DNA from: Candidatus Latescibacterota bacterium
GTDB taxonomy: Bacteria > Latescibacterota > UBA2968
Direction: 5' to 3'
DNA: 64,000 nt
NCBI GenBank assembly: GCA_022823725.1
Contig: JAJEHL010000026.1
Span: 1 to 64,000 of the forward strand
Of the stretch, positions 15,896 to 33,612 are shown in pieces (within the stretch, counting starts at the first letter, position 1; the number at the start of each line of letters is the position of its first letter). The notes under the pieces were generated by a model. It had not been told where the DNA came from and made no database searches. It was given only the letters and a program-made list of their open reading frames with translations. The position numbers and the translations under genes were made by a program.

Positions 15896-15912
15896 TGTCG
15901 CAAAACGCGACA
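15896..15912. promoter_or_regulatory. Candidate activator-binding inverted repeat
   Basis: TGTCGCAAAACGCGACA is a perfect 6+6 inverted repeat. It matches the form TGTCGC-N5-GCRACA, shared with the site at 16033-16049, and lies about 220 bp upstream of the sigma-54 promoter at 16125. This fits an upstream activating site for an enhancer-binding protein. Confidence 0.55.
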
Positions 15913-16032
15913 TTTGTTTCAATTTGCGACAAACCCTCTATATCCTACCTCCAATTTTCCCATAAATCTTCTATAAACAAACGTTTGGCGCATCTCTAAC
16001 TCACAGGATATGCGTTTCCCTGTGGTTTACAA

Positions 16033-16049: not shown

Positions 16050-16124
16050 CTCCAAAAATCTGCGAATCACCTTCTTATGCTCTAACGCCTTCATATTCAA
16101 AGAATTAGCTCATTTATCACAAAC

Positions 16125-16140
16125 TGGCACGACTTTTGCA
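16125..16140 (+). promoter_or_regulatory. Sigma-54 promoter of the histidine kinase operon
   Basis: TGGCAC (16125-16130), 5 bp, then TTGCA (16136-16140) matches the -24/-12 consensus exactly. Transcription would start near 16152, which excludes start codons upstream of that point and supports ATG 16307 for the kinase. Confidence 0.8.
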
Positions 16141-16225
16141 TACATTTGCAATAGTTTTTGCATACATTTGCATCTGGTTTTTGTATATATTTGCATACAT
16201 TTGCATACATATCAAAGTGCCGAAG
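16135..16225 (+). repeat. Tandem TTTGCATACA elements in the kinase leader
   Basis: TTTGCATACA and close variants (TTTGCAATAG, TTTGTATATA) occur about six times between the -12 box and 16220. The AT-rich array lies in the early transcribed region and may bind a regulator or be a slippage product. Confidence 0.6.
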
Positions 16226-16306
16226 CCCGCATATACTGAGCAAAAAACAGGCAGCATATCGGCACTCCTGCACGATCCCCTTTCCGAAAAAAAGGATGTC
16301 AATACC

Positions 16307-19300
16307 ATGACAGACGCAAAGATCCTGATTATCCAGAACGAGCATTCTTCTGCCAAACACCTCGAAGAACATCTGACAGGAACCGCCTTTCATTCGCATC
16401 CTCGTATGAAAGCGCATTCTGTCACCCACCTCAAAGAAAGCCTGATAGCCCTGGGCTATACCGTGTGTGCCTCGGTCTCCTCTGCACAGGAAGCCATTAA
16501 AAAAGCCGCTGAAATGCATCCCGACCTGGCCCTGATCCATCTCGAACTGTTGAGAGATGCCGATGGCGTTGAAGCGACCGAACAACTCAGCGCCGATATA
16601 CCCGTAATCTTTCTCACAGATGGTTCCGAGGGCGACCTGTTGCAACGCGCCGAGGCAGTCCATCCATTCGGCTATGTACTAAAACCTTATGAAGAACAGC
16701 AACTTCATCTGAACATCCAGACGGCTCTTTCCCTGCACAAACGAGAAAGAAAGCACAAACAGACCGAGTGCGAGACAAAAGAAAAAATCGACGAACTGCA
16801 ACATCGGGCGCAACGCCTGGAAACCATTCTGGAGAACATCAGTGACGGCGTGATCGCCGCCGATGAAAACGGAAACTACTTGACTTTTAATGCCAGCGCA
16901 AAACGAATCGTCGGATCCTATATCCCAGACTCAGACCTGAATCGCCGGTCTGAAGAATACGGCCTCTTCCTCCCGGATCGCGTCACCTTATTCCCCAGTG
17001 CTGATCTCCCAATCACACGCGCCATCCACGGTGAATCCTCAGACGACGTCGAGGTATTTGTACGCAACCCGAACTTGCCGGGAGGTACTTATGTCAGCAT
17101 CAGCGGCAGACCTTTACCACCTGATGAAAGCGGGACGAAAGGCGGCGTGATCGTTTTCCGCGACATCAGCACAGAAAAAGAGACAGACGCCAAATTGGAA
17201 CAGGCAATCGGCGAATTGAGCGATCAGACCAAACTCCTGGAAACCGTCCTGAAAAATATAAATAACGGCGTCGTCCTCTCCGATGCAACAAATCGCATAT
17301 TGTTCATGAATGCAAGTGCGAAACGAATTTTGGGTATAGATCTCGACGCAGATATCCGGGATATACCCGTCAATGAACGGTCTAAAAATTACGGCGTTTT
17401 TTATGCCGATGGAAAAACGCGTGTGCCAACCGATCACCTTCCGCTCGTGCGTGCAGTAAAGGGCGAAAAAACAGAAGAGATAACGTTAGTGTTCCGCAAT
17501 GAGCAAAATGCGGATGGGACTTATGTCCGCAGCCGCGGGATACCCGTGCTGAACAGTGACGGCACAATGGTCAAAGCCGGCCTGGCCATTCTGCGCGACT
17601 TCACCGAACACGAAAAAATGAAAGAAAGATTGGCTCAAATCGATGGCGAATCACGCGATCACATCCCATTCATTGAACCCGTCTCTGACGCCGATTCCCC
17701 CGACATCGCCAGGGACACAGAGATGGCAGAGAGACAGGAACAAATCATTGAGGACTTGCGCGAACAACTCCAGCTCATGGAAGCTGTCTGTGACAATCTA
17801 AATGAAGGTATCGTCGTCGTCAGTCCAATGGGCAAAATATTATTCGTCAATAAAACTGTGGAAAGAATTTTCGGTACGTGGATCATCACGCCAGACCAGA
17901 ACGAATGGTCTAAAACTTTTGGTATTTACTACCCCGATATAAAAACGCCCATCCCCGTTGAGCAACTTCCCCTCACACGCGCGCTCTATGGCGAGGAAAC
18001 AGAGGAGATGGAAGCGTTTGTACAAAATAAAAAAAATCCGGAAGGGACGTACATTGCGGCTCGTGGCCGCCCCATACTCAGCAGTGACGAAAGTACGATC
18101 GTAGCCGGATTGGCCGTTTTTCGCGACCTCACGCAGGAAAAAGAGGCAGACGCCAAATTGGAACAAGCCAACCGCGAGCAGCAACGTCAGACCCAACTTT
18201 TGGAAACCGTTTTTAACAGTATCAGCGACGGGGTGATCGTGGCCAATGCAGAGGGGAAATTCACCATTTTTAATTCGAGTGCCGAACAAATTGTCGGTAT
18301 CGGTATGCTGGATATACCTCCCGATCAATGGACGAAAGAATACGGCATCTTTTTACCCGACCAGAAAACGCACGTACCAGCCGATCAAATTCCACTCGTG
18401 CGCGCCATTCAAGGTAAAAACACGGACGATATGGAGTTGTTTATACGCAATAAGAAAAAGCCCGACGGGGTTTATATCAGCGTCAGTGGTCGCCCCCTGA
18501 AAAAAGATATAGATGGGCACGGAGGAGGCGTGGTCGTTTTTCACGACATCACCGCGCGCAAAATAGCAGAGATGGAGCTGGAACAAACAACGCGTGAATT
18601 GCGAAACCAGAACGAACTGATTGAGACCGCTTTTAATAGTATCAGCGATGGCGTCGTTATTTACGATCTATCCAAACGCTCCCTGCACCTCAATTCCAGT
18701 GTCACACAAATTACCGGCATAGAAGGGGTAAATGTACCGCTAACTGAATGGCCGAGAACAAATGGCGTTTTTTATCCCGATCAAAAAACGCTCATTAAAA
18801 TCAGAGAACAACCGCTCACCCGCATCCTGTTTCGCGGAGAGTCCATTGACGATGAGGACGTATTCATTCGCAATGAAAAAAAGCCAGAGGGCGTTTATAT
18901 CCGCGCAAGCGGGGGACCGCTCTACAACGAGGACGACGTGGTTAGAGGGGCTGTACTTACTTTCCGCGATATCACCGAACAGATGATCAACGAAGAAGCG
19001 TTGGCGCGGGCATTCGCACAAGGCCGCCTGGAGATCCTCGATACCATCCTCCACAACATTGGCAATGCCGTCAACAGCGTAACAGCGGGTATTGAGACCG
19101 TTCGCCAGCATCTGGTGGAAAACCCACTCATACACCGCCTCTGCGCCCTTGCCGAGGCGATAAAAGCACACAGAGACGATTGGGACAATTACATCCAAAA
19201 TGACCCGCAAGGCCAACAGGCATTGCCGTTTGTTATCGCACTCGCCGAAGACTTTAGCCAGCAGGATGCCGCACTGATCAAAACGGTTAATCGCGTGAAA

Positions 19301-19876
19301 GACCGGGCGGATCACATCGCCGATATTATCCGCACTCAGGAGACATTAGACGGACCCAATATGAACCTGAAAGACATCGACCTTCAGCACGCGTTCTCGA
19401 CAGCTATCAAGGTCTTGCAAGAGTCGCTCGAAAAAAGAGGGATCGAGACAGTTATTGACTGCGAAGACAGTACGCCACAAGAAATTCGGGTTCAAGAGAG
19501 CAACTTCCACCAGATGATGATCAACCTGATCAAAAATTCGATAGAAGCCATCAATGAACTCGCAGCAGCAGGCGGTCTCAATGCACCGCCTCGCATTCAT
19601 ATCCGCGTCTATGCCAGGGGGAATATTCTCACCCTCGAAGTAGAGGATAACGGCATCGGCATTGACATAGAGAACACCAGGCGGATATTTGCCTCTGGTT
19701 ATACCACAAAAGAATCGGGGAGTGGCCTCGGTCTCTACTCGGTAGCCAATTTTGTCCTCAGTTCTGGCGGACAGATTCGCGCAATGAGCGACGGCATTGG
19801 CAAGGGGGCAATCATTCGGATCAAACTGAACCTTCCCACCCTTCTCCCACATAAAAAATTCTACAATATCCGCTAG
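16307..19876 (+). CDS. Multi-PAS sensor histidine kinase with degenerate receiver
   Basis: A 1,189-residue soluble sensor kinase. Residues 1-150 resemble a response-regulator receiver, but the phosphoacceptor Asp is His 78 (LALIHLEL), and about 20 extra residues sit after the first helix. Five PAS modules follow, each opening like ETVFNSISDGVIVAN. Then come a dimerisation helix with the phosphorylatable His 916 (ILHNIGN) and a catalytic ATPase domain with NLIKNSIEAI, DNGIGID and GSGLGLYSV. There are no membrane spans, so it senses cytoplasmic or small-molecule signals. A sigma-54 promoter lies upstream. It is followed by a related truncated kinase and a sigma-54 activator, its likely partner. 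Confidence 0.9.
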   Translation: MTDAKILIIQNEHSSAKHLEEHLTGTAFHSHPRMKAHSVTHLKESLIALGYTVCASVSSAQEAIKKAAEMHPDLALIHLELLRDADGVEATEQLSADIPVIFLTDGSEGDLLQRAEAVHPFGYVLKPYEEQQLHLNIQTALSLHKRERKHKQTECETKEKIDELQHRAQRLETILENISDGVIAADENGNYLTFNASAKRIVGSYIPDSDLNRRSEEYGLFLPDRVTLFPSADLPITRAIHGESSDDVEVFVRNPNLPGGTYVSISGRPLPPDESGTKGGVIVFRDISTEKETDAKLEQAIGELSDQTKLLETVLKNINNGVVLSDATNRILFMNASAKRILGIDLDADIRDIPVNERSKNYGVFYADGKTRVPTDHLPLVRAVKGEKTEEITLVFRNEQNADGTYVRSRGIPVLNSDGTMVKAGLAILRDFTEHEKMKERLAQIDGESRDHIPFIEPVSDADSPDIARDTEMAERQEQIIEDLREQLQLMEAVCDNLNEGIVVVSPMGKILFVNKTVERIFGTWIITPDQNEWSKTFGIYYPDIKTPIPVEQLPLTRALYGEETEEMEAFVQNKKNPEGTYIAARGRPILSSDESTIVAGLAVFRDLTQEKEADAKLEQANREQQRQTQLLETVFNSISDGVIVANAEGKFTIFNSSAEQIVGIGMLDIPPDQWTKEYGIFLPDQKTHVPADQIPLVRAIQGKNTDDMELFIRNKKKPDGVYISVSGRPLKKDIDGHGGGVVVFHDITARKIAEMELEQTTRELRNQNELIETAFNSISDGVVIYDLSKRSLHLNSSVTQITGIEGVNVPLTEWPRTNGVFYPDQKTLIKIREQPLTRILFRGESIDDEDVFIRNEKKPEGVYIRASGGPLYNEDDVVRGAVLTFRDITEQMINEEALARAFAQGRLEILDTILHNIGNAVNSVTAGIETVRQHLVENPLIHRLCALAEAIKAHRDDWDNYIQNDPQGQQALPFVIALAEDFSQQDAALIKTVNRVKDRADHIADIIRTQETLDGPNMNLKDIDLQHAFSTAIKVLQESLEKRGIETVIDCEDSTPQEIRVQESNFHQMMINLIKNSIEAINELAAAGGLNAPPRIHIRVYARGNILTLEVEDNGIGIDIENTRRIFASGYTTKESGSGLGLYSVANFVLSSGGQIRAMSDGIGKGAIIRIKLNLPTLLPHKKFYNIR

Positions 19877-19938
19877 AAGCGGGAATCCAGTCTATCAGAT
19901 TTTTTTGACAGACCAATCATCGAAAAGGATGAAACGCG

Positions 19939-21171
19939 ATGATAAAACAGCAATCTCCTTCAAAGATCCTGATCGTGCAAAGCGATCATTCTGCTGCCAC
20001 CCACCTCGAAGAACGCCTGAAAAACCTGGGCTATACCGTGTGCGCCACGGTTTCCTCTGCACGGGAGGCCATTGAAAAAGCCGCCACCATGCGTCCCGAC
20101 CTGGCCCTGATTGACCTCGAACTCAAAGGCGAGATCACGGGCATTGACATAGCCGAACAAATTGGCAGTCGCATGCCCGTGATCTACCTGATGGACGAGG
20201 TAGAAGAAGACCAGTTGCAACAGGCACAGGCGACCCGGCCATTTGGTTATGTGCTGAAACCCTATGAAGAACAACAACTTCATCTGAACATCCAGACTGC
20301 ACTTTCCATGCACGAGCGGGAAAAGCAGCAAAGAGAAACCGAGAACGAGTTATACGATCAAATCCAACTCACAGAAGCGATTTTTGACAGCATGGGTGAC
20401 GGCGTGATCGTCACGGATGAACACAGGAAAATTTTGCTCTGGAATTCAAGAGCGACACAAATTGGTGGCGTCAATACACCGACCTACCATACAGATCAAT
20501 GGGTAAAAGAATACGGCTTCTTTCTTCCCGACAGAGAAACACCTCTGACACCAGAGACCAGCCCGCTCAGGCGCGCTATCAACGGTGAAGCGACAAACAA
20601 TGTCGAGATATTTATACGCAACGCGCAAAAACCGGATGGGGTTTATACCAGCGTCAGTGGCAGACCGCTGCTGAGGCAGGGAGGTATTTCGAGAGGGGCG
20701 GTGCTGATCATCCGCGATGTCACCGAGCAAATAAACGCCAAAGAAGCGTTGGCGCGGGCATTCGCACAAGGCCGCCTGGAGATCCTCGATACCATTCTCC
20801 ACAACATCGGCAATGCGATCAACAGCGTAACAGTGGGCATTGAGACCGTTCACCAGAATCTGATCAACGATCCGTTCTTACACCGCCTCTGCGCCCTTGC
20901 CGATGCCGTAGAAGCGCATCGAGACAATTGGGTTGATTACATCCGCAACGACCCGCAAGGCCAAAAAGTAATCCCTTTTATTATCGCCCTCGCCGAAGAC
21001 TTTACCGGACTAAATGAAAGGTTGATAAATACAGTTGCCCGCGTGAAAGACCGGGCGGATTACATCGCTGATATTGTCCGCACCCAAAAAGCATTTGGCA
21101 GTCCGAGTATGGATCAAAAAGACATCCACTTAAAGGACATAGACGAAAGGACCACAGATGACACTCAGTAA
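19939..21171 (+). CDS. Receiver-PAS-DHp protein lacking the kinase catalytic domain
   Basis: A 410-residue paralog of the upstream kinase. The receiver has the acceptor Asp 59 (LALIDLEL). One PAS module ([15 protein letters not shown]) and the dimerisation domain with His 288 (ILHNIGN) follow. The protein stops shortly after [10 protein letters not shown], where the larger kinase goes on to its ATPase domain. The stretch around the His is nearly identical at DNA level in the two genes, showing recent duplication. Without an ATPase domain it cannot autophosphorylate; it may be phosphorylated by the larger kinase and act as a relay. Its 3' end overlaps the next gene by 14 bp. Confidence 0.88.
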
Positions 21172-23038
21172 TTACGACAACAATCGCGTCTTGATCGTTG
21201 ATGATCAGGAAGATATCCACGACGACTTTGAAGAAATGTTGAAGCCCAACCTATCGACGCAGTCAACAGATGAGTTGGCGGTCGCCTTCATCCGCGAAAA
21301 AGACAAGCCCTTTTTGCCAGAGTTTGAACTTTTGCACGCAACGGGCGGAGAGGAGGCCTGCGAAATCGTACAGAAGGCAAAGGAATCGAACCGCCCCATT
21401 GCCATTGCGTATATCGACATCAGAATGCCGCCGGGTATCGATGGGATTGAAACGATCCGTCGGATCAGAAAAATAGATCGCGACATCGAGATCGTCATCA
21501 TGACCGCGTACACGGACAAGCCGCTGTCCGAGATCATTCACGAAATGGAATTGCTGCACAAAGTCCTCTATATCAGAAAGCCCTTTGCACACGAAGAGAT
21601 TCAGCAGATCGCGCTTTCCCTCGTCGGCAAGTGGAACGTCGAACAGGCATTGGCCGAGAAACAGCAGCAACTCACTGCCAGCCATCAAAGACTGGAAGCC
21701 GTGCTGAATGCCACAGGAGACGCCATGGCCATGTACAATGCCACCGGGCATCTGATGTTTGCGAATCAGGGCTACGAAAAATTGTTTAATCTGAAGGAAA
21801 ACGAACTGAAGAAAATTCCGCCGGACGCGCTCACGGCGCGATTCAAAGAGCGGTTTCAAGAACCCGGTCTGCCGGAATTAGAGGGCAAGTTCCTCCTTGA
21901 AGACAACGCGAAAAAAGAAACCCGTACGGGTCAGTTGCCAAAGCAACGCCTGTTCTACCAATCCACCGCCCCGGTGCGCGATGGTTGTGAAAACGTCATC
22001 GGCCGCCTGATGGTATATCGAGACGTATCCAGAGAAATCGAAGTCGAGCAAATGAAAGCCGAAGTGCTGCGCCTGCGGACCGAACTGGGAACGACCTACT
22101 CGTTCGACGGCATCGTGGGCGACAGCCCCAAAATGCAACAGATGTACGCGCTGATCAAACAGGCAACCGAAAGCGATATCACGGTACTCATTCGCGGCGA
22201 AAGCGGAACCGGTAAGGAACTGATCGCCAGACTCTTTCACTTCAACAGCCCGCGCAAGGAGGAGCCATTTGTGGCGATCAATTGCGCCGCCCTTCCCGAA
22301 CCCCTGATTGAAAGCGAATTATTCGGCCACGAAAAGGGGGCTTTCACCGGGGCGACGTACCAGAGAATCGGGGCTTTTGAGCGCGCAGAGGGCGGAACCA
22401 TTTTTCTCGACGAAATCGGCGATATGCAACCCGTTCTGCAAGCCAAGCTCTTGCGCGTGCTGCAAGAGCGCAAAATCTCGCGGATCGGCGGATCGGCCAC
22501 GCTCCCGGTAAACGTGCGGGTCATTGCGGCGACCAACCACAACCTGGAAAATGCGATACAGGCGGGAACCTTCCGCGAAGACCTGTTCTATCGCCTATCG
22601 GCTTTCCCCATCTCAATCCCGCCCCTGAGAGAGCGCCGAGAAGATATTCCCCTGCTGGCCAACCACTTTATCGAAAAGTGCGCCACACGCATGGACAAAA
22701 CCATCAGCGGCCTTTCCAACGCGGCACTGCGCGTATTGCTCCAGTACGATTGGCCCGGCAACGTACGAGAACTGGAAAACGCCATCGAGCGGGCCGTTCT
22801 GCTGGAAACGACCGGGGTACTGCAAGCCAGCAACTTCCCATCCGAATTATCGCCGCTCCTATCGGCGCAAAGCGACCAGCCCACAGGGATCCTGCCCCTT
22901 GAGAAAGTCGAGTGCCAGGCCATAGCCCACGCGCTCGAAGCCTCAGACCACAACGTTACCAGAGCAGCTCAAGCACTGGGAATCAACAGAGCGACTCTGT
23001 ACCGGAAATTGAAGAGATACGATTTGATTTTGAAGTGA
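21158..23038 (+). CDS. Sigma-54-dependent response regulator (NtrC family)
   Basis: A 626-residue enhancer-binding protein. Order: receiver (VLIVDDQED, acceptor Asp 87 in YIDIRMPP), a PAS-like segment (about 175-300), an AAA+ domain with Walker A GESGTGKE (347-354) and the sigma-54 contact loop GAFTGA (394-399), and a Fis-type helix-turn-helix at the end ([20 protein letters not shown]). It overlaps the truncated kinase gene, so the three genes form one operon. It is the obvious activator for the two sigma-54 promoters in this block, at 16125 and 23309. Confidence 0.93.
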
Positions 23039-23046
23039 GCAATGAC

Positions 23047-23066
23047 GGGCGAGGCATGCCTCGCCC
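23047..23066 (+). repeat. Repeat B palindrome
   Basis: A perfect GGGCGAGGCATGCCTCGCCC with GAC before and CTAC after, 8 bp downstream of the activator stop codon. Confidence 0.85.
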
Positions 23067-23100
23067 CTACCGTTTCCTCCTTTATACTTCCCTCCATACC

Positions 23101-23133
23101 GTTGCAAAATGCGAATCGCGTTGCAAAATGCAA
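23101..23133. promoter_or_regulatory. Two phased candidate activator sites
   Basis: GTTGCAAAATGCGAA (23101) and GTTGCAAAATGCAAT (23120) are 19 bp apart, about two helical turns. Both fit GTYGC-N5-GCRA, the core of the inverted repeats upstream of the kinase promoter, and lie about 200 bp upstream of the sigma-54 promoter at 23309. The rest of 23134-23300 shows no other clear feature. Confidence 0.5.
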
Positions 23134-23308
23134 TTCGCGCCCTCCTACGCAATATAACCTCTTGAAATAAAATAACTTACTACTCTAAATCGGCCTCAGA
23201 CCGACATGTAACCATTGCATTTTGCCCAGTTTGCAGACGATCCAGATATTGGAGACAGATGTGCCTAAGTAATTGTATTGAAATGGGTTAGGAAATTTCC
23301 GAGGACAT

Positions 23309-23324
23309 TGGCACGGTTTTTGCA
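23309..23324 (+). promoter_or_regulatory. Sigma-54 promoter of the giant adhesin
   Basis: TGGCAC (23309-23314), 5 bp, TTGCA (23320-23324) is a perfect -24/-12 match. The start site would be near 23336, so translation begins at ATG 23374 rather than at an upstream GTG. Confidence 0.82.
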
Positions 23325-23373
23325 TCAAGGATAAGTGCAACGATTTGTAAATCCTCAGCGAAAGGAATCAACG

Positions 23374-26300
23374 ATGCATTTTTCAGGCAAGTTCTCTACC
23401 AGCTCAACCCCATCCATTATCACACGACTTCTCAGTTTGTTACGACTCTCCAGAGCCGCCGGTATCGCGATCCTGCTCGGCGCAGCGTCGGTGTTTCCGG
23501 CGAGCGCGGGCACCGAGGTGATCGAGGGTGGGCTAGCGCGTTACACGATAGAATCTTCGGTCTCCGAAGGCCTGCTTCCGACCGTCACCATCACCTCAAA
23601 GGTACCCAGACTCAAGGTCAGTTACGAGACCAAAAAATCCCCCAAGGAAAGTGACTGCTGCGACATAGCGCTTCCGATTTCAGACTTTGTTCATAAGAGC
23701 GGTGGCGCCACTGTCCTGGGGGTAGGCACCCCATTCCTCATCTTCCTGAGCACCGTAGAGGATGACAATGTAGAGCATGACGAGCACTTTGATCTGAAAG
23801 TCACTGTAACCGACGGCACCGACAAAGTAATTAGAACGTTCAAAATAAAGATACTCAACGATGACCGGGCAACGATCGCGCTGTCGAAACCACATGCACT
23901 GGAAGGCGGCGATCTGGTCTTCACGGCAACGCTGGACAAGTTAGTGGTGCCCAGCACAGTCACCGTGACGCCGACATTCACCAATGGAACCACCACTGCG
24001 GCCGACTATACCGCGAACACCTCGCCGATCACCTTCACCGGCTTTAAAGGAGAGAAGAAGACTTTCACGGTGAGCACGACCGAGGATACGGAAGATGAAA
24101 GTCTCGAGACGTTCACAGTGGGGCTTACCGTCTCGGAAGGTAGAAAGCCCTGGAACTACGACGGAGACGGAAGCGCGATCGCGGTCAAGTCCGGGACCGG
24201 CACGATCCACGATAGGACGGGTGTGGCGGTCAATATTACGGGACCGACATATACGGTTGGGAACCATCCGTTTGATGTAGATATCACCTTTGCGAAGTCA
24301 ATGTTCGAGTTCGTGCAGAGCGACGTGACAGTGGGCAACGGAAGGATAACGGATTTCTCCGGTTCGGGGACCAGCTACACGGTCACGATCTGGCCGTCGG
24401 CCAGCGGCACAGTGACCGTAGATGTGCCAGCAAACGTCGCCCACACGGGCGAACAAGGAATCAGTGTTATCTTGCGCAAATACAACTGGGCAGCGACACA
24501 ATTCTCAGTGCAGGCAGACCTGGATCCTCCGTCAGTCGGTATCTACGGTTCATCGGATGTTCAGACCGGTGCGTTCTACGTGACTATCTTGTTTTCAGAA
24601 CCAGTCGGTGAGTACGGGAACCCGTTCGAGCAGGACGATATAACGGTGGGCAACGGGACGGCGACGGAGTTCTACCTCCGTGAGGGTTCAAAGACCACCT
24701 ACTCGGCCAAGATCACACCGTCGGCCAGCGGGACGGTGACCGTAGATGTGCCAGCAAACGCGACCACTGATGCAGGGGGCAACGGCAACACGGCGGCGAG
24801 CCAGTTTTCAGTAGAGGCGGATCTGCCTCCGACAGTGACCATCACGGGACCAACCGATGCTCAGAACAGTGCATTTGACGTAAATATCACCTTCTCCGAA
24901 TCCGTCACAGGATTTGAGAGGGGTGATATAACAGTCAGCAATGGCTCCATCACGGCCTTCTCCGGCTCGGGAGCCAGCTACACAGCCACCATCACCCCAG
25001 CGGCAAGTGGAACCGTCACAGTAGATGTGCCAGCAAACGTCGCCACTGGTGGTGCAAGCGACGGCAACACAGCGGCGCCGTTCCCATTCTCCGTGCAGGC
25101 AGACCTCGATGCGCCAACGATCAGCATCACGGGACCAACAGATGATCAGGACAGTGACTTTGACGTAACGGTCACCCTCTCAGAGGACGTCACAGGATTC
25201 GAGCAGAGTGATGTAACAGTCGGCAATGGCTCCATCACTGCATTCTCCGGCTCAGGAACAAGCTACACCGCAACCATTACGCCAACAGCCAGTGGAACCG
25301 TGACCGTAGATGTAGCAGCAGACGCCGCCACCGATGGTGCAGGCAACGGCAACACAGCGGCGAGCCAGTTCTCTGTGCAAGTGTATCTGCCGCGGTCAAT
25401 CCGGTTCGAAGGCCCGACCACGGTGCGCACGACCGAGGACGCGTTCCAGGTAAAAGCCATCTTCTCGGAAGCACCTGAGTCATACGATTTTGAGCCGTGG
25501 AATTGCACGATGTCCTACACCCAGGAAGGGGCAGTCTTTAACATAACGCTGACGCCGGGCTATTATGCAGGATCTGGTGGACGCGGGTCGTGGCCATACA
25601 CATGTCACATAAGAGCGATATGGCCCGGAGTCAAGAACGGCCCTGCCACTCTGAGGGAAGGTTATCTGGTGGACGTGGACGCGGACCCGCCGGGCTTCTG
25701 GTGGAATTCCGGGATCACCGGACCGACGACGCCTCAAAACGGACCCTTCGATGTCAGGCTCGGCGTGACCGAAGGCAATCTCGTCGGGTTCGACGCGGAA
25801 GATATCACGGTGACAAACGGCACGGTCACGTCTTTCGAGGCCGATACCGATTACGGGTGGAACTACACCGTGCAGATTACACCGACCGCAAGCGGCGAAG
25901 TGACCGTACAGGTCGGCGCGGCGACGTTCAAGGACGGCGCAGGCCATGACAACAGGGCATCCAGGCGGTTTTCGGTGCAGGCGGACTTCGACGCCCCAAC
26001 GGTCAGCATCGCGGGACCCACGGATACTCAGAACGGTCCGTTTGACGTAACGATCACTTTCTCAGAGGACGTCACAGGGTTCGGGCAAGGGGACATGACG
26101 GTAGGCAACGGATCGGTGACGGCCTTCTCCGGTTCGGGAGCCAACTACACCGCCACCGTCACCCCAGCTGCCACCGGCACCGTGACCGTAGATGTGGCGG
26201 CCAACGTGGCAGAGGATGCGGCGACTAACGGCAACACGGCGGCGAGCCAGTTTTCAGTAGAAGCGGACTTGAATGCGCCCACGGCCAGCATCACGGGACC

Positions 26301-29300
26301 GACGGATGCTCAGAACGGGCCATTTGACGTAACCATCACATTCTCCGAATCCGTCACAGGGTTCCAGCAGCGTGATGTAACAATCGGCAATGGCTCCATC
26401 ACTGCATTCTCCGGTTCGGGAGCCAACTACACCGTCACCATCAAGCCAGCGGCCACTGGAACCGTGACAGTAGATGTGCCAGCAAACGTCGCCACTGATG
26501 TCGCAGGCAACCGCAACCAGGCAGCCAGCCTATTCTCAGTGACGGCCACAATCAGGGATACTCAGACAAGAGACTTAGATAAACCGACGGTCAGCATCAC
26601 GGGACCAACCGATACGCAGGAGGGGCCATTTGACGTAACCATCACATTCTCAGAATCCGTCACAGGGTTCCAGCAGAGTGATGTAACAATCGGCAACGGA
26701 ACCGTCACAGCCCTCTCAGGTTCAGGCGCAAGATATACCGCCACCATCACGCCAGCGAGCAATGGAACCGTGACAGTAGATGTGCCAGCAAACGTCGCCA
26801 CAGATGGTGCAGGCAATGGCAACACGGCGGCGAGCCGATTTTCCGTACAGGCAGACCTCGATGCGCCGACGGTCAGCATCACGGGACCAACCGATACGCA
26901 GGAGGGGCCATTTGACGTAACCATCACATTCTCGGAAGCCGTCACGGGGTTCGGGCTGAACGACGTGACAACGGACAATGGAATTGTGACAGCATTCTCA
27001 GGTGCGGAAGCAACTTACACCGCCACCATCACGCCGATAGCCACTGTTGCTGCCGCAGGCAAGCGAACCGTGCCAGCAAACGTCGCCACAAAGCGAATCG
27101 TGACAGTAGATATGCCAGCAAACGTCGCCACAAATAACGCAGGCCATGGAATCGTGACCATGGATGTGCCAGCAAACGTCGCCACTGATGACGCAGGCCA
27201 TGGCAACCTTCCAGCCAGACCATTCGCAGTCCCGGTCAGCATACCGGCGGATACGCCGGGGAACCCGGATCCGAACAATCCGCCAGCAGACTCGAATCGC
27301 CCCACCGTGACCATCACCGGACCGACGGATACGCAAACGGGGCCATTTGGTGTAACCATCACCTTCTCGGAACCCGTCACAGGATTCGAGCCGAACGACG
27401 TGACAATCGGCAATGGAGCCGTCACAGCATTCTCAGGTTCACAAGCAACTTACACAGCTACTATCGAGCCACAGGCCAATGGAATAGTGACCGTGGATTT
27501 GCCAGCAGACGCCGCCACCAATAACGCAGGCCATGGCAACCTTCCAGCCAGACCATTCGCAGTCCCGGTCAGCATACCGGCGGATACGCCGGGGAACCCG
27601 GATCCGAACAATCCGCCAGCAGACTCGGATCGTCCCACCGTGACCATCGCTGGTCCAACAGATACGCAGAACAGTGCGTTTGACGTAACCATCACCTTCT
27701 CGGAACCCGTCACAGGATTCGGGACGAACGACGTGACAACCGGCAACGGGGCCGTCACAGCATTCTCTGGTTCAGGAGCAAGATACACCGCCACCATCGA
27801 CCCAGCGACCAATGGAATAGTGACCGTAAATGTGCCAGCAAACGCCGCCACAAATAGCGCAGGTCATGGCAACCTTCCAGCCAGACAATTTTCTGTGCAG
27901 GCAGACATAGGGCAGACCGAGTTAGATGAGCCGCCGGACCCCAGGCCGACAGTGACCATCACGGGGCCGACCGATACGCAGACGGGACCATTTGACGTAG
28001 AGATCACCTTCTCGGAGGACGTCACAGGATTCGAGCAGAATGAAGTGAGAGTGATTAAAAATGGAACCGTTACAGCATTCTCAGGTGCGGGGGCAATCTA
28101 CACCGCCACCATCACGCCAGCGGGCAATGGAACTGTGGTCGTGGATGTCCCGTCAGACGTCGTCACCAATAGCGAAGGCAATGGCAACGATCCGGCAGAG
28201 CGATTTTTCATGGTGATGGCACATCTGGGGCCGCCAACGGTGACCATCACCGGACCAACCGATACGCAGACGGGGCCATTCGACGTAACCATCACCTCAT
28301 CTGAGCCACTTAAAGGGTTCGAACTGAACGACGTGACAGTCGGCAATGGGTCCGTTACAGCATTCTCCAGTGCGGGAGCCTTCCACACAGCCACCATTGA
28401 GCCAACCGCCAGTGGAACCGTAACCGTAGATGTGCCAGCAAACGTCGCCAAAGGATACGCAAACACCGGCAATGAAGCGGCGCGTCAGTTTTCCGTGCAA
28501 GCAGACATAGACGCACCAGCGGTGGTCATCACCGGACCAACCGATACGCAGACGGGACCATTCGACGTAACCATCACATTCTCAGAAACCGTCACAGGGT
28601 TCGAGCAGAGTGATATAACAGTCGGCAACGGAGCCGTCACAACCTTCTCAGGTTCAGGAGCAACCTACAAAGCCACCATTACACCAGCGGCCACCGGAAC
28701 CGTAAGAATAGATATACTGGCAAACCTCGCCAACGATGCCGTAGGCAACGGCAACGAGACAGCCAGACAGTTTTCTGTACAAGTACAAGCAGACACAGAC
28801 GCACCAGCGGTGGTCATCACCGGACCAACCGATACGCAGACGGGGCCATTCGACGTAACCATCACATTCTCAGAGACCGTCACGGGGTTCGAGCAGAGTG
28901 ATTTAACAGTCGGCAACGGAACCGCGACAGCATTCTCAGGTTCAGGAGCAACCTACACCGCCACCATTACACCAGCGGCCACCGGAACCGTAAGAATAGA
29001 TATAATAGCAAACCTCGCCAGCGATGCCGCAGGCAACGGCAACGAGACAGCCAGACAATTCGCAGTCATGGCAGACCTTGAGCGTCCCACTGTGACCATC
29101 ACGGGACCAACGGATGCTCAGGAGGGGCCATTCGACGTAACCATCACATTCTCAGAGACCGTCACAGGGTTCGAGCAGCGTGATTTAACAATCGGCAACG
29201 GAGCCATCACAGCATTCTCAGGTGCGGAAGCAACCTACACAGCCACCATCACACCAGCAGGTAATGGAACCGTAAGGATAGATGTAATAGCAAACGTCGC

Positions 29301-32300
29301 CAACGATGCCGCAGGCAACGGCAACGAGGCAGCCAGACAATTCGCAGTCATGGCAGACCTTGAGCGTCCCACTGTGATCATCACGGGACCAGCGGATGCT
29401 CAGAACAGTGCCTTTGACGTAACCATCACCTTCTCAGAGACTGTCACAGGATTCGAGCAGCGTGATGTAATAATCGGCAACGGAGCCGTCACAACCTTCT
29501 CAGGTGCGGAAGCAACCTACACAGCCACCATCACACCGACAGCCAGTGGAACCGTAACCGTAGATGTGCCAGCAAACGTCGCCAACGATGCCGCCAGCCA
29601 GGGCAACCGTGTAGCCAGACAATTCGCAGTCATGGCAGACTTTGAGCGTCCCACTGTGATCATCACGGGACCAACGAATGCTCAGAACAGTGCCTTTGAC
29701 GTAACCATCACCTTCTCGGAGACCGTCACAGGATTCGAGCAGCGTGATGTAACAATCGGCAACGGAACCGTCACAGCATTCTCAGGTGCGGAAGCAAGAT
29801 ACACCGCGACCATCGAGCCAGTGGTCAGTGGAACCGTAACCATAGATGTGCCAGCAAACGTCGCCAACGATGCCGCCAGCCAGGGCAACCGTGCAGCCAG
29901 CCAGTATTATGTACAGGCAGACATAGACGCACCAGCAGTGACCATCACGGGTCCCGTGGGTATTCAAACAGAGGCCTTTAACGTAAAGATCACCTTCTCA
30001 GAGGACGTCACAGGATTCGAGCAGCGTGATTTAACAATCGGCAACGGAACCGTCACAGCATTCTCAGGTGCGGAAACAAACTACAAAGCCACCATCACAC
30101 CGACAGCCACCAGAACCGTAACCGTAGATATACCGACAAACGTCGCCACAGATGACGCAGGACATGGCAACCGTGCAGCCAAATATTATGTGCAAGCAGA
30201 CATAGACGCACCAGCGGTTGCCATCACTGGTCCAGTGGGGATTCAGAACAGCGCGTTTGACGTGGAGATCACCTTCTCAGAGGACGTCACAGGATTCGAG
30301 CAGAATGATATAACAATCGGCAACGGAACCATCACAGCATTCTCAGGTGCGGAAACAAGCTACAAAGCCACCATTGAGCCAGCGGGCACTGGAACCGCGA
30401 CCATAGATGTGCCAGCAAACGTCGCCACAGATGACGCAGGACATGGCAACGATGCAGCCAGCCAATTCGCAGTGCAGGCAAACCTGACGCGCCCAGCGGT
30501 GGTCATCACAGGGCCGCCGGACACTCAGAACGGTACATTTGACGTAAAGATCACCTTCTCAGAGGACGTCACCGGGTTCGGGCAGGACGACATCATCGTA
30601 AATAACGGCTCCGTTACAGCATTCTCAGGTGCGGGCAGCAGCTACACAGCCACCATCACGCCAGCAGCCAATGGAACAGTAACGATAGATGTGATGCCCG
30701 ACGCCGCCAGGGGTACGGCCAACGGCAACACAGCAGCAGAACAAATTTCAGTAAAAATAAACTCAGCACCGGATATAACCGTCGCGACATTGGGTCTGAC
30801 AACGACCGAAACCCTGACAACGACCGAAACGGGCGACACAGCCACTTTCACGGTGGTGCTGAACAGCCCAGCAGCGGTGACACTTTCCGTCAGCAGTTCG
30901 GATATAACCGAAGGCACAGTGGCGCCCCAATCTCTCACCTTCACAGACAAAAACTGGAATATTCCGCAGACCGTGACCATCACCGGCATGGACGACAACA
31001 TCGACGATAGCGATCAGGACTATAAAATTGTGCTGAAAGCAATGAATGATCATCCCGATGGCGCCGAGATAGACCTTCCCCATGTATCGGTGACCAACCG
31101 CGACGACGATGTAGCGGGGATCACGGTGGTCCCAATTTCCGGAATGATCAGGACCAAAGCGGGAATCGAACCAATCTCTGAAACAACTGCCAGCACGGCT
31201 GACCTCAATTCGCAGTTGATCACCACTGAAAGAGGCCACGCCGTCAGTTTCAAAGTGGTACTGGATAGCCAGCCCACAGCAGCGGTGACACTCTCAATCA
31301 GCAGTTCAGATATGACCGAGGGCACAGTGACGCCCCAAACGCTTACCTTCACGCCCGGTCGGGGTACAGGTCAACCCATAATCAGCTCATCATTTGGTCC
31401 CGCATTCGGCGCCACGACCTGGAACACGCCGCAAGTGGTGACCGTAACGGGCCTCGAAGATGGCCTCGAAGATGGCGACCAGCCCTACACCATCACCATA
31501 TCGCCAGTCGCAGGCGCCGATCTCAACTACAACAATATAAACGCCAAAGAGATCGCACTGACCAACCTCGACAATATAATCCTGCGCAATCTGACACTCT
31601 CGGCAGGCACACTGACACCGGCATTTACCAGCGAAACAATAACCTATGAAGCCACGGTTGCAAACGCGGTTGAAAGCCTTTCAGTAACACCTGTGGCGAG
31701 CGACGCGGCCGCAACCATTCTTGTCAACGGCATGCCAGTACCCAGCGGCACGCCGAGCCAGGACATCGCATTGGCGATCGGTCCAAACATCATTGAAGTC
31801 ACTGTGGGGAACACGGCCTATACAATAACACTCACGCGCACCGCGAACGGCGCACCCGCCATGCCAGTCCTGCAGAACCAGACTGCGACAGTGGGCGAGG
31901 CATTCCAATATGCGTTCCCCGAAGTGAACGACCCGGACCCCGGCCAGACCGTGACCTACACGGCGACACTTGAAGGCGGCGGTGATCTGCCGACCTGGCT
32001 GCACTTCGATGCGCCCAATCGCACATTTAGCGGTACGCCAGGCCGCACCGATGTGGGGGTCATAAGCATTGCAGTGACAGCGACAGATGACGGCACACCG
32101 CCAATGTCTGCCAGCACGACCTTCACACTCTCGGTGGTCGTGCCAGATATCAACTCACATGCCCTGGAGTTGGCCCTGGCCAGCTTTGGGCGAACCGTGG
32201 CTACCAGCGCGGTAGATGCCATATCTGATCGCTTCACAACGCCACGGGCAGCAACTGCAATGATAGGTGGACAACCCTTGACACTGCGCTCAGATCACGG

Positions 32301-33612
32301 CATCGTCGGACTGGTGCAGAACGCGGCGAGAACGGCAGGCCTCAACATCAACCTGCCGTTGGGACAGTTCGGAGCAGCATCCCCCATGCAAAATCCATTC
32401 GACGTTGATGGGGACAAGCAGATTCGGTTCCATCCCCGCTCTATACGCGACATCTTATCACAGAGCCACTTCGCCCTCCCCCTGGGAGGCGGAGACGAAA
32501 ACGCAGATGAAATGCCGTCCTGGGCACTGTGGGGACAGGGCAACATGAACGGATTCTCGAGTCTTTCCGAAGATAATCTTTCACTGGATGGACGCGTCTT
32601 TTCGACCTACCTGGGCATGGACTATCGTTTGGACAACCCCTTGACGCTCGGCATGGCATTGTCTCACAGCACCGGAGAGATCGATTACACCGGCAGTGAT
32701 GCAGGTGTAATGAACATGAACCTCCTCAGCGTCATATCCTACGCGCACTATGCAGCAGGCACGGGCCTGGATGTGTGGGGGATGGGCAGTGCGGGCCGGG
32801 GCGAGGCGCATGTGAAGGATCAATTCAGCGAAGCGCGCACCAATATCTCCATGCTCATGACCGCGGCGGGCATGCGAAACGCAGTCGCAAAAATGGGCGC
32901 TATAGATCTGGCCCTGAAAGGCGACGCCCTTGCCGTGTGGATGGCATCGGATGAACAGGAAAACTTGCCCTTGACCCGGGCAGATGTGCAGCGCATTCGG
33001 TTCGCACTGGAAGGCGAGTCCAGATACGCAATGTCGCAAACCTCATTGCTGACCCCGCGCCTCGAACTGGGAGGACGCTGGGATGGCGGCAGCGCAGAGA
33101 CAGGTCTGGGCACAGAAATAGGCGGCGGCCTGGGATATTTGCATACGTCCAGCGGGTGGGGCTTAGAGGCACGCGGTCGCTACCTTCTGGCACACCAGCA
33201 CGCCAACTTTGAGGATTGGGGCACCAGTCTGATGTTGCGTTTCGATTCCGGGATAAGGAATCACGGTCTGAAGCTGACGCTAACGCCCACATGGGGCAAT
33301 CCCGTCAGCCATACAAATGCCATGTGGGATAATATCAGTACAGCGCGTGTCACCCCCGGTTCAGGCGGTCCTTCGGCCTATCAGCCACAGCAACTTGACA
33401 TGGAAATCGGTTATGGTCTCCCATTTAAAGCCGGGTTACTCTCCTCGTATAGCGGATTGAGTACAACCGGTGCTGGCGCAATGCGCTACCGGCTGGGTAG
33501 CCGTCTGGAACTGGATCGAACCGCATATCTGAACGTCGAAGCCGAGCACAGCAAACAGGCTGTCGGGACCTCTGACTCTCGTGTTATGTTCCAGGGGCAG
33601 ATATACTGGTAA
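23374..33612 (+). CDS. Giant Ig-repeat autotransporter-like adhesin
   Basis: A 3,412-residue surface protein. A long signal sequence ends near PASAG (about residue 46). A Calx-beta-like N-terminal region follows, then about 22 copies of a roughly 95-residue Ig-like repeat (residues about 285-2460) with the pattern TITGPTDTQ..FDVTITFSE.VTGF. Next are two Calx-like modules, a cadherin-like sandwich (LTLSAGTLTPAF), and a putative Ig module (QNQTATVGEAFQY). The last 360 or so residues, from WALWGQGNMNGF, alternate like an autotransporter barrel and end in YW, an outer-membrane assembly signal. AAAGGA precedes ATG 23374. Probable role: adhesion or matrix binding, displayed under sigma-54 control. 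The passenger may remain attached; no cleavage motif is evident. Confidence 0.85.
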   Translation: MHFSGKFSTSSTPSIITRLLSLLRLSRAAGIAILLGAASVFPASAGTEVIEGGLARYTIESSVSEGLLPTVTITSKVPRLKVSYETKKSPKESDCCDIALPISDFVHKSGGATVLGVGTPFLIFLSTVEDDNVEHDEHFDLKVTVTDGTDKVIRTFKIKILNDDRATIALSKPHALEGGDLVFTATLDKLVVPSTVTVTPTFTNGTTTAADYTANTSPITFTGFKGEKKTFTVSTTEDTEDESLETFTVGLTVSEGRKPWNYDGDGSAIAVKSGTGTIHDRTGVAVNITGPTYTVGNHPFDVDITFAKSMFEFVQSDVTVGNGRITDFSGSGTSYTVTIWPSASGTVTVDVPANVAHTGEQGISVILRKYNWAATQFSVQADLDPPSVGIYGSSDVQTGAFYVTILFSEPVGEYGNPFEQDDITVGNGTATEFYLREGSKTTYSAKITPSASGTVTVDVPANATTDAGGNGNTAASQFSVEADLPPTVTITGPTDAQNSAFDVNITFSESVTGFERGDITVSNGSITAFSGSGASYTATITPAASGTVTVDVPANVATGGASDGNTAAPFPFSVQADLDAPTISITGPTDDQDSDFDVTVTLSEDVTGFEQSDVTVGNGSITAFSGSGTSYTATITPTASGTVTVDVAADAATDGAGNGNTAASQFSVQVYLPRSIRFEGPTTVRTTEDAFQVKAIFSEAPESYDFEPWNCTMSYTQEGAVFNITLTPGYYAGSGGRGSWPYTCHIRAIWPGVKNGPATLREGYLVDVDADPPGFWWNSGITGPTTPQNGPFDVRLGVTEGNLVGFDAEDITVTNGTVTSFEADTDYGWNYTVQITPTASGEVTVQVGAATFKDGAGHDNRASRRFSVQADFDAPTVSIAGPTDTQNGPFDVTITFSEDVTGFGQGDMTVGNGSVTAFSGSGANYTATVTPAATGTVTVDVAANVAEDAATNGNTAASQFSVEADLNAPTASITGPTDAQNGPFDVTITFSESVTGFQQRDVTIGNGSITAFSGSGANYTVTIKPAATGTVTVDVPANVATDVAGNRNQAASLFSVTATIRDTQTRDLDKPTVSITGPTDTQEGPFDVTITFSESVTGFQQSDVTIGNGTVTALSGSGARYTATITPASNGTVTVDVPANVATDGAGNGNTAASRFSVQADLDAPTVSITGPTDTQEGPFDVTITFSEAVTGFGLNDVTTDNGIVTAFSGAEATYTATITPIATVAAAGKRTVPANVATKRIVTVDMPANVATNNAGHGIVTMDVPANVATDDAGHGNLPARPFAVPVSIPADTPGNPDPNNPPADSNRPTVTITGPTDTQTGPFGVTITFSEPVTGFEPNDVTIGNGAVTAFSGSQATYTATIEPQANGIVTVDLPADAATNNAGHGNLPARPFAVPVSIPADTPGNPDPNNPPADSDRPTVTIAGPTDTQNSAFDVTITFSEPVTGFGTNDVTTGNGAVTAFSGSGARYTATIDPATNGIVTVNVPANAATNSAGHGNLPARQFSVQADIGQTELDEPPDPRPTVTITGPTDTQTGPFDVEITFSEDVTGFEQNEVRVIKNGTVTAFSGAGAIYTATITPAGNGTVVVDVPSDVVTNSEGNGNDPAERFFMVMAHLGPPTVTITGPTDTQTGPFDVTITSSEPLKGFELNDVTVGNGSVTAFSSAGAFHTATIEPTASGTVTVDVPANVAKGYANTGNEAARQFSVQADIDAPAVVITGPTDTQTGPFDVTITFSETVTGFEQSDITVGNGAVTTFSGSGATYKATITPAATGTVRIDILANLANDAVGNGNETARQFSVQVQADTDAPAVVITGPTDTQTGPFDVTITFSETVTGFEQSDLTVGNGTATAFSGSGATYTATITPAATGTVRIDIIANLASDAAGNGNETARQFAVMADLERPTVTITGPTDAQEGPFDVTITFSETVTGFEQRDLTIGNGAITAFSGAEATYTATITPAGNGTVRIDVIANVANDAAGNGNEAARQFAVMADLERPTVIITGPADAQNSAFDVTITFSETVTGFEQRDVIIGNGAVTTFSGAEATYTATITPTASGTVTVDVPANVANDAASQGNRVARQFAVMADFERPTVIITGPTNAQNSAFDVTITFSETVTGFEQRDVTIGNGTVTAFSGAEARYTATIEPVVSGTVTIDVPANVANDAASQGNRAASQYYVQADIDAPAVTITGPVGIQTEAFNVKITFSEDVTGFEQRDLTIGNGTVTAFSGAETNYKATITPTATRTVTVDIPTNVATDDAGHGNRAAKYYVQADIDAPAVAITGPVGIQNSAFDVEITFSEDVTGFEQNDITIGNGTITAFSGAETSYKATIEPAGTGTATIDVPANVATDDAGHGNDAASQFAVQANLTRPAVVITGPPDTQNGTFDVKITFSEDVTGFGQDDIIVNNGSVTAFSGAGSSYTATITPAANGTVTIDVMPDAARGTANGNTAAEQISVKINSAPDITVATLGLTTTETLTTTETGDTATFTVVLNSPAAVTLSVSSSDITEGTVAPQSLTFTDKNWNIPQTVTITGMDDNIDDSDQDYKIVLKAMNDHPDGAEIDLPHVSVTNRDDDVAGITVVPISGMIRTKAGIEPISETTASTADLNSQLITTERGHAVSFKVVLDSQPTAAVTLSISSSDMTEGTVTPQTLTFTPGRGTGQPIISSSFGPAFGATTWNTPQVVTVTGLEDGLEDGDQPYTITISPVAGADLNYNNINAKEIALTNLDNIILRNLTLSAGTLTPAFTSETITYEATVANAVESLSVTPVASDAAATILVNGMPVPSGTPSQDIALAIGPNIIEVTVGNTAYTITLTRTANGAPAMPVLQNQTATVGEAFQYAFPEVNDPDPGQTVTYTATLEGGGDLPTWLHFDAPNRTFSGTPGRTDVGVISIAVTATDDGTPPMSASTTFTLSVVVPDINSHALELALASFGRTVATSAVDAISDRFTTPRAATAMIGGQPLTLRSDHGIVGLVQNAARTAGLNINLPLGQFGAASPMQNPFDVDGDKQIRFHPRSIRDILSQSHFALPLGGGDENADEMPSWALWGQGNMNGFSSLSEDNLSLDGRVFSTYLGMDYRLDNPLTLGMALSHSTGEIDYTGSDAGVMNMNLLSVISYAHYAAGTGLDVWGMGSAGRGEAHVKDQFSEARTNISMLMTAAGMRNAVAKMGAIDLALKGDALAVWMASDEQENLPLTRADVQRIRFALEGESRYAMSQTSLLTPRLELGGRWDGGSAETGLGTEIGGGLGYLHTSSGWGLEARGRYLLAHQHANFEDWGTSLMLRFDSGIRNHGLKLTLTPTWGNPVSHTNAMWDNISTARVTPGSGGPSAYQPQQLDMEIGYGLPFKAGLLSSYSGLSTTGAGAMRYRLGSRLELDRTAYLNVEAEHSKQAVGTSDSRVMFQGQIYW
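24228..30750 (+). repeat. Coding tandem array of about 22 Ig-like repeats
   Basis: Units of roughly 270-340 bp begin at ACCATCACGGGACCAACCGA-like sequence. Units between about 28,500 and 30,500 are the most alike, implying recent expansion. Two units (about 25,390-25,980) are divergent. An exact block of about 95 bp encoding a Pro/Asn-rich linker occurs twice (near 27,199 and 27,534). Copy number is likely to vary between strains. Confidence 0.85.

Follow-up and report, generated by a model that had tools for sequence, protein, structure and literature searches.

The DNA analysed here, called the window, is a stretch of 64,000 nucleotides from a Candidatus Latescibacterota bacterium and corresponds to contig C2:1-64000 of a genome of 5.34 Mb in 51 contigs. 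A preliminary description had proposed that it holds a self-contained sigma-54 circuit in which two kinases, an NtrC-type activator and a giant adhesin are linked with positive autoregulation. The genes concerned encode a sensor kinase (HK1), its partner (HK2), a sigma-54 activator (ACT) and a giant surface protein. They are listed below with their promoter elements, where UAS stands for upstream activating sequence.

15897..15930, + strand: tandem enhancer (UAS) of the kinase operon, GTCGCAAAACGCGAC and GTTTCAATTTGCGAC, 19 bp apart, 228 bp before the sigma-54 site
15972..15987, + strand: middle element, TATAAACA-N5-TTG, at -153 from the sigma-54 site, possibly a bend (IHF-like) site
16080..16109, + strand: AT-rich imperfect dyad CTAACGCCTT..AAAGAATTAG, directly upstream of -24, alignable among relatives
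16125..16140, + strand: sigma-54 -24/-12 element of the kinase operon, TGGCACGACTTTTGCA, exact pattern match
16307..19876, + strand: HK1, sensor kinase with REC (Asp replaced by His), four to five PAS, HNIGN-type DHp and HATPase_c
19939..21171, + strand: HK2, with REC (Asp intact), PAS and DHp, no ATPase domain
21158..23038, + strand: ACT, activator with REC, a PAS-like region, AAA+ (GAFTGA) and a Fis helix-turn-helix (HTH)
23101..23134, + strand: tandem enhancer (UAS) of the surface-protein gene, GTTGCAAAATGCGAA and GTTGCAAAATGCAAT, 19 bp apart, 208 bp before the sigma-54 site
23309..23324, + strand: sigma-54 -24/-12 element of the surface-protein gene, TGGCACGGTTTTTGCA, exact pattern match
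23374..33612, + strand: giant surface protein of 3,412 aa from ATG 23374, with Pfam domains and a barrel modelled by AlphaFold2 (AF2)

Two promoters with one enhancer

The two TGGCAC-N5-TTGCA promoters had been described as perfect, and they are: the elements at 16125-16140 and 23309-23324 are exact, intergenic and on the plus strand, the window has no other match free of mismatches, and both have the -24 GG and -12 GC of a sigma-54 promoter. The motif is real in the source genome, with 24 exact sites compared with 0 for a reversed-pattern control, though it is not rare. One copy of rpoN is present, so that its absence, which would have spoken against the circuit, is ruled out. Because the genome has these 24 exact sites and encodes about 20 sigma-54 activators, perfect sigma-54 sites alone are not special in it.

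Both window promoters also carry one common enhancer, consisting of two GTYGC-N5-GCRAC dyads. We aligned 21 promoter regions from the window and its relatives. In the common layout, two such dyads 18-19 bp apart are followed by TATAAACA-N5-TTR near -155, then in many promoters by a TTCTGCAACA half site, an AT-rich dyad near -50 and finally the -24/-12 element. The middle element has 0-1 mismatches in 12 of the 21 promoters and 3-5 in the other 9, counted against a consensus drawn from the same alignment, and the IHF consensus fits it only partly. The dyads are poor in the promoters of L092-L094.

When the source genome was searched for the single-dyad pattern with at most one mismatch, 36 rows were obtained compared with 10 for the reversed control. 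Among the 24 dyad loci read, an exact sigma-54 site lies within 350 bp only in the four covering the window copies, and the 5 leftover places have no sigma-54 match below 3 mismatches. The tandem enhancer with an exact sigma-54 site was not found elsewhere among the own-genome matches read. Since, among these matches, the pair occurs only at the two window promoters, an autoregulated circuit is likely, and the positive autoregulation proposed at first is supported by the common enhancer and exact sigma-54 site before both the kinase operon and the surface-protein gene. An exact UAS match at C44:20071 was considered as a further target and rejected, as a 683-codon open frame runs through it and its best sigma-54 match has 3 mismatches. 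An Rfam search of 12000-36000 gave 0 matches.

Activator, kinases and giant surface protein

The gene between the two promoters had been read as a sigma-54 activator with GAFTGA, and ACT is indeed a complete activator of NtrC type. Its domain scores are 4e-72 for PF00158 and 1e-15 for PF02954, and it has both hallmarks of an NtrC-family enhancer-binding protein, namely AAA+ with GAFTGA and Fis HTH, and the receiver Asp, Thr and Lys. In the REC domain, the acidic pair, Asp87, Thr116 and Lys141 are invariant in 12 of 12 aligned orthologues. The best NCBIfam scores (AtoC 412, NifA 384, NtrC 379) are all under the cut-offs of their models. ACT thus resembles NtrC, AtoC and ZraR in its REC-AAA+-Fis architecture and GAFTGA, but adds a PAS-like region, a lengthened REC and an HNIGN-type kinase partner.

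For HK1, four PAS stretches were recognised by Pfam and five by eye, the DHp carries LHNIGNA, and no transmembrane segment was noticed by eye. Its start is likely ATG 16307, judging from the close relative L077, whose kinase open reading frame (ORF) begins MTDAKILII. TTG 16136 was rejected as the start, for it falls inside the -12 element and the first residues would be translated promoter repeat. The leader at 16134-16210 consists of 3.5 tandem copies of a TTTTGCATACATTTGCAATAGT-like unit, which repeat the -12 region, and L077 has a similar array after its promoter. Further upstream, the window has two ORFs, 14460-15245 and 14957-15826, that seem to derive by a frameshift from what is a single 453-aa ORF in L077 (2585-3946).

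The mention of two kinases does not hold. HK2 has no HATPase_c match, the domain expected of a histidine kinase, and no N-box or G-box; without an ATPase domain it was rejected as an active kinase. It is a diverged partial duplicate of HK1, with 53% identity over 281 aa. In the close relative G002, HK2 is absent and the kinase stops about 69 bp before ACT.

The 3,412-residue protein was confirmed as an ORF. Its N-terminus looks hydrophobic by eye, and it contains 21 Ig-like stretches of Big_12 as well as He_PIG and cadherin-like domains. The AF2 model of its C-terminus has a mean pLDDT of 72.9 and 16 strands in 340 residues. Foldseek searching of the PDB with this model gave 47 matches with E<=0.001, by title all outer-membrane barrel proteins: transporters, porins, assembly proteins and the autotransporter domains of EspP, BrkA, Hbp and EstA. 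A PDB sequence search with the C-terminal 440 aa gave 0 matches. The protein is predicted to end in an outer-membrane beta-barrel, as a type V autotransporter does. The earlier name of autotransporter agrees with the predicted barrel, but no Pfam autotransporter model, including the Autotransporter domain, matches at E 0.01. Type V autotransporter adhesins are alike in their hydrophobic N-terminus, long repeat passenger and C-terminal outer-membrane barrel; the differences are the missing Pfam match and a 16-strand model that is not a clear 12-strand barrel. It is quite conceivable that the protein, though anchored by a barrel, has a role other than that of an adhesin, such as a protective coat or nutrient capture, as only Ig-like, cadherin-like and barrel regions were recognised in it and no ligand-binding domain was identified. 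Against this, stalks of Ig repeats carried on barrels are a typical feature of adhesins.

The kinase-activator cassette in other genomes

A search for the same gene order in related genomes had been suggested, and the kinase-ACT order does recur. In 18 of a set of 20 loci from relatives, ACT is preceded by the kinase at a distance of up to about 500 bp; L086 lacks a kinase, and in L096 (G001) REC-PAS of the kinase is fused to the AAA+/HTH of the activator. On either side of this kinase-less fused gene lies an exact sigma-54 site, the two being divergent. The UAS of both G001 promoters is altered in the same way, towards GTTTC..GTAAC, and a comparison of recognition helices found no clear change matching this shift. 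Homology to the window surface protein was seen downstream in 6 of the 20 loci, weakly in L078.

For a second set, genome contigs were scanned with ACT residues 1-290. Among the best 79 loci, 52 (L121-L172) have at least 48% identity, after which identity falls to 28-45%; the L172 match is partial, at 70%. In 43 of the 52, a kinase is found no more than about 1.5 kb upstream of ACT, and four of the other nine are cut by contig ends. The ACT orthologues are 53-96% identical in 44 scored loci, a count that leaves out 8 of the 52 with incomplete ACT or a short contig. The labels of the metagenome-assembled genomes (MAGs) carrying them are Latescibacterota, Gemmatimonadota, Poribacteria, Acidobacteriota and Deltaproteobacteria. 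The self-contained module stands as far as the linkage of sensor, activator and surface protein is concerned, but it is not a one-off, as MAGs labelled with several different phyla have its kinase-activator cassette too.

The promoter signals recur with the cassette. A tandem UAS with a sigma-54 site was found at 21 places, distributed over 20 of the 52 loci, and all but one of these places adjoin HK/ACT genes; the reverse strands gave 1, and three Markov-resampled sets gave 1 in all. A sigma-54 site within 700 bp after ACT is present on the same strand in 29 of 44 loci and on the reverse strand in 1 of 44. Across 60 genomes, the tandem UAS (at most one mismatch) and an ACT orthologue occur together in 11, ACT only in 4, the UAS only in 1 and neither in 44 (Fisher p 4e-8, relatedness not corrected), with the frame-split ACT of G019 counted as present and the fused form of G001 as none. 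The tandem-UAS pattern has 48 sites in these genomes compared with 4 for the reversed pattern; 8 of the 48 are the coding-like sequence discussed below. Eight sites away from ACT were picked as good-looking UAS, excluding other two-mismatch sites (e.g. in G022, G032 and G034-G036), and all eight have a sigma-54-like element with 1-2 mismatches 217-230 bp downstream.

Such further promoters might mean that HK/ACT is mainly a broader regulator with many targets, of which the surface protein is just one; we consider this unlikely. In relatives, UAS and sigma-54 promoters also stand before genes that look methyltransferase-like (L235) or glycosyltransferase-like (L237) by eye and before those for 234-252-aa proteins (L231-L233), and the source genome has one weaker extra match, C35:177088 (L250), its third tandem match, with 2 mismatches in the UAS and a sigma-54-like site with 2 mismatches 219 bp on. 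Few tandem sites occur per relative, however, and C35:177088 looks coding. It is a 34-bp sequence with two dyad-like halves, the frame around it is open throughout the 1.2 kb read, and it is kept in 8 genomes of the genus (the source genome, G001, G002, G004-G007 and G009), among which no REC-bearing ACT orthologue was found in G004, G006, G007 and G009. We read it as coding because of this long open frame and its recurrence in genomes without ACT. That the two sigma-54 promoters are real but under different activators, with HK/ACT merely located between them, is most improbable: about 20 activators and 24 exact sites would allow it, but both promoters carry one tandem UAS, of which no further copy with an exact sigma-54 site was seen in the genome, and this UAS co-occurs with ACT across genomes and adjoins ACT in distant ones.

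The targets downstream of the cassette are often, but not always, giant surface proteins. In the window and L121 the target is a Big_12 protein, the window copy having the barrel. In L126, a member of Terriglobia with a single 5.1-Mb chromosome, the same kinase-activator pair is followed by a Big_12/He_PIG protein whose repeats are 48-58% identical, over 1,300-2,160 aa, to those of the window and L121 proteins. The open frame of L126/L247/L248, about 10,805 aa when summed from pieces, comprises Ig/Calx-like repeats and a barrel, the latter 38% identical to the window barrel (E 2e-52). In L143 the targets are tandem Calx-beta proteins with barrel homology, and in L093, which is the same place of that genome, the sigma-54 site recurs before three successive genes. 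The targets in Poribacteria are LRR/WD40 (L157), cadherin/LRR with Por_Secre_tail (L160), WD40/Big (L170) and LRR with a tail match just under its cut-off (L169). The distance from sigma-54 site to gene is 68 bp in L160 and 588 bp in L157, and L170 has no site by the cut-off used.

In the source genome, exact sigma-54 sites in L006 and L019 (contigs C11 and C42) lie near genes starting with propeller-like sensor repeats; these frames of about 1,090 aa also encode activators, and the sites open towards secreted-looking proteins. A sensor-activator beside a secreted protein may thus be a recurring theme in this genome. In L007 and L015, pspA-like genes (named by eye) each lie downstream of an exact sigma-54 site, and in L007 a sigma-54 activator gene is about 1 kb away.

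The proposed switch and sponge symbionts

The genes, domains, motif residues, promoters, common enhancer and their conservation, all read from the sequence, support the linkage of sensor, activator and surface protein in one sigma-54 circuit, and we consider a closed two-component switch the probable explanation. HK1, with its several PAS domains and soluble look, would sense an internal signal and phosphorylate the REC domain of ACT, while HK2, having no catalytic domain, would be at most a phosphate acceptor or relay. ACT would bind the paired GTYGC-N5-GCRAC sites 208-228 bp upstream and loop to the sigma-54 polymerase at TGGCAC-N5-TTGCA, perhaps aided at the kinase promoter by a bent element at -153. 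It would then open the promoter of its own kinase-activator operon, giving positive feedback, and that of the giant Ig-repeat protein, whose product would be displayed on its outer-membrane barrel and may serve in adhesion.

Several observations weigh against this switch or its generality. Within the window, the surface-protein promoter has a weak middle element with 4 mismatches, the PAS score of ACT is 19.9, just under the Pfam cut-off of 21.8, and the barrel model is incomplete with low TM-scores of about 0.2-0.5. In the HK1 REC, His replaces the phospho-acceptor Asp (PDLALIHLEL); the site is Asp in L077, and Asp, Asn, Lys or without a motif match in other relatives, and since it varies in this way the domain looks dispensable. 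C35:177088 would pass the loose tandem-UAS test applied to related loci. Just 20 of the 52 loci pass that test, and L140, L143, L146 and L147 fail it with a sigma-54 site after ACT. No downstream site is present in 15 of 44 loci; six of these have one just upstream of ACT (L130, L131, L137, L139, L141 and L144), and nine have none upstream either. Autoregulation of the kinase gene was seen, among the loci examined, only in the window and G002 (L077/L121). As for targets, those of L136, L138 and L162 look cytoplasmic, that of L159 is permease-like, those of L122-L125 are short and secreted-like, and those of L133 and L168 are ambiguous; 5 of 29 loci (L146, L148, L149, L150 and L165) have no ORF of at least 150 aa starting within 900 bp.

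No description of the kinase-ACT cassette was found in the literature among the matches listed. The earlier statement that no such system is described is nevertheless too strong, since PrsK/PrsR, with a sigma-54 box before PEP-CTERM genes, follows the same logic with different proteins in the part of PMC1569441 available, and the excerpt of PMC9850573 gives pepA of A. tertiaricarbonis as RpoN-dependent. PrsK/PrsR/PrsT, as portrayed in these excerpts, is the nearest system in logic, sharing a histidine kinase, an NtrC-like Fis-family response regulator, and an activator box plus sigma-54 box before genes for exported proteins. PrsK is transmembrane there, whereas HK1 is a soluble-looking PAS kinase; the window target has an outer-membrane barrel, and cassette targets often lie next door. 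Membership was rejected, as both models fall below their cut-offs (TIGR02915 for PrsR, 374.2 bits against 502.6; TIGR02916 for PrsK, 51.2 bits against 300), and no NCBIfam match to a PEP-CTERM signal was found on the target at E 0.01. The view of sigma-54 as controller of the bacterial exterior, in the portion of PMC3162934 available, offers a general likeness in that activators are tied to envelope functions; it stresses synthesis and transport of envelope building blocks, whereas here single giant surface proteins have a cognate cassette. The switch is mechanistically conventional, and what is new is the conserved enhancer code and its distribution across phyla.

This distribution suggests transfer of ACT between lineages, on the evidence of one housekeeping gene, RpoN. 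The ACT copies of Terriglobia L126 and of L123, from the same class as the window, are equally similar to the window copy (70% each), and RpoN identity falls from 51% to 35%. The corresponding ACT/RpoN values are 67/38% for L129, 67/39% for L133 and 55/34% for L164, so that ACT stays nearly level while RpoN falls in three of four genomes of other labelled phyla. In a quick ACT tree using submitter labels, 49 rows fall in one starred clade, Acidobacteriota-labelled rows need at least two changes, and L126 groups with 'Gemmatimonadota' L131 and L132; some 'Gemmatimonadetes' MAGs belong to the window's own class. No 16S was found in the L126 genome.

Many of the cassette-bearing MAGs come from sponges, some by documentation and others by our reading of their codes, and the source bacterium is related to known sponge symbionts. 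The jk18x codes denote Ircinia MAGs in the part of PMC9531527 available, an RHO2_bin MAG is named in PMC10469786, and the RHO, COS, IRC and APA codes appear to match sponge hosts in the excerpt of PMC8163846. The sponge origin documented or matched in this way does not extend to the SB, PCPOR2b, Plut, CO36386, 277c, p16x and OX/CATQ records, so restriction to sponges is not established.

We tentatively suggest that the HNIGN-kinase/ACT pair and the GTYGC-N5-GCRAC enhancer form a portable regulatory cassette, exchanged among unrelated sponge-symbiont phyla, which may tie one shared signal to the giant host-contact proteins of each lineage: Ig-repeat barrels in Latescibacterota-type and Terriglobia MAGs, and LRR, WD40 and cadherin proteins with sorting tails in Poribacteria. 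The available parts of the sponge literature report that cadherin genes are enriched and repeat proteins numerous (PMC8163846) and that WD40 proteins of Poribacteria carry Por tails (PMC3909097), and propose that eukaryote-like repeat and adhesion proteins help to hold the partnership (PMC8163846, PMC3909097); no transcriptional regulator of these proteins in sponge symbionts was found in the literature among the matches listed. If the suggestion is true, the eukaryote-like surface proteins through which sponge symbiosis is thought to be mediated would have this cassette as their common switch. Most sponge symbionts have not been grown in culture, and a kinase-activator pair that is conserved and has a readable enhancer would provide a handle that predicts co-regulated genes across phyla and can be approached without culturing them.

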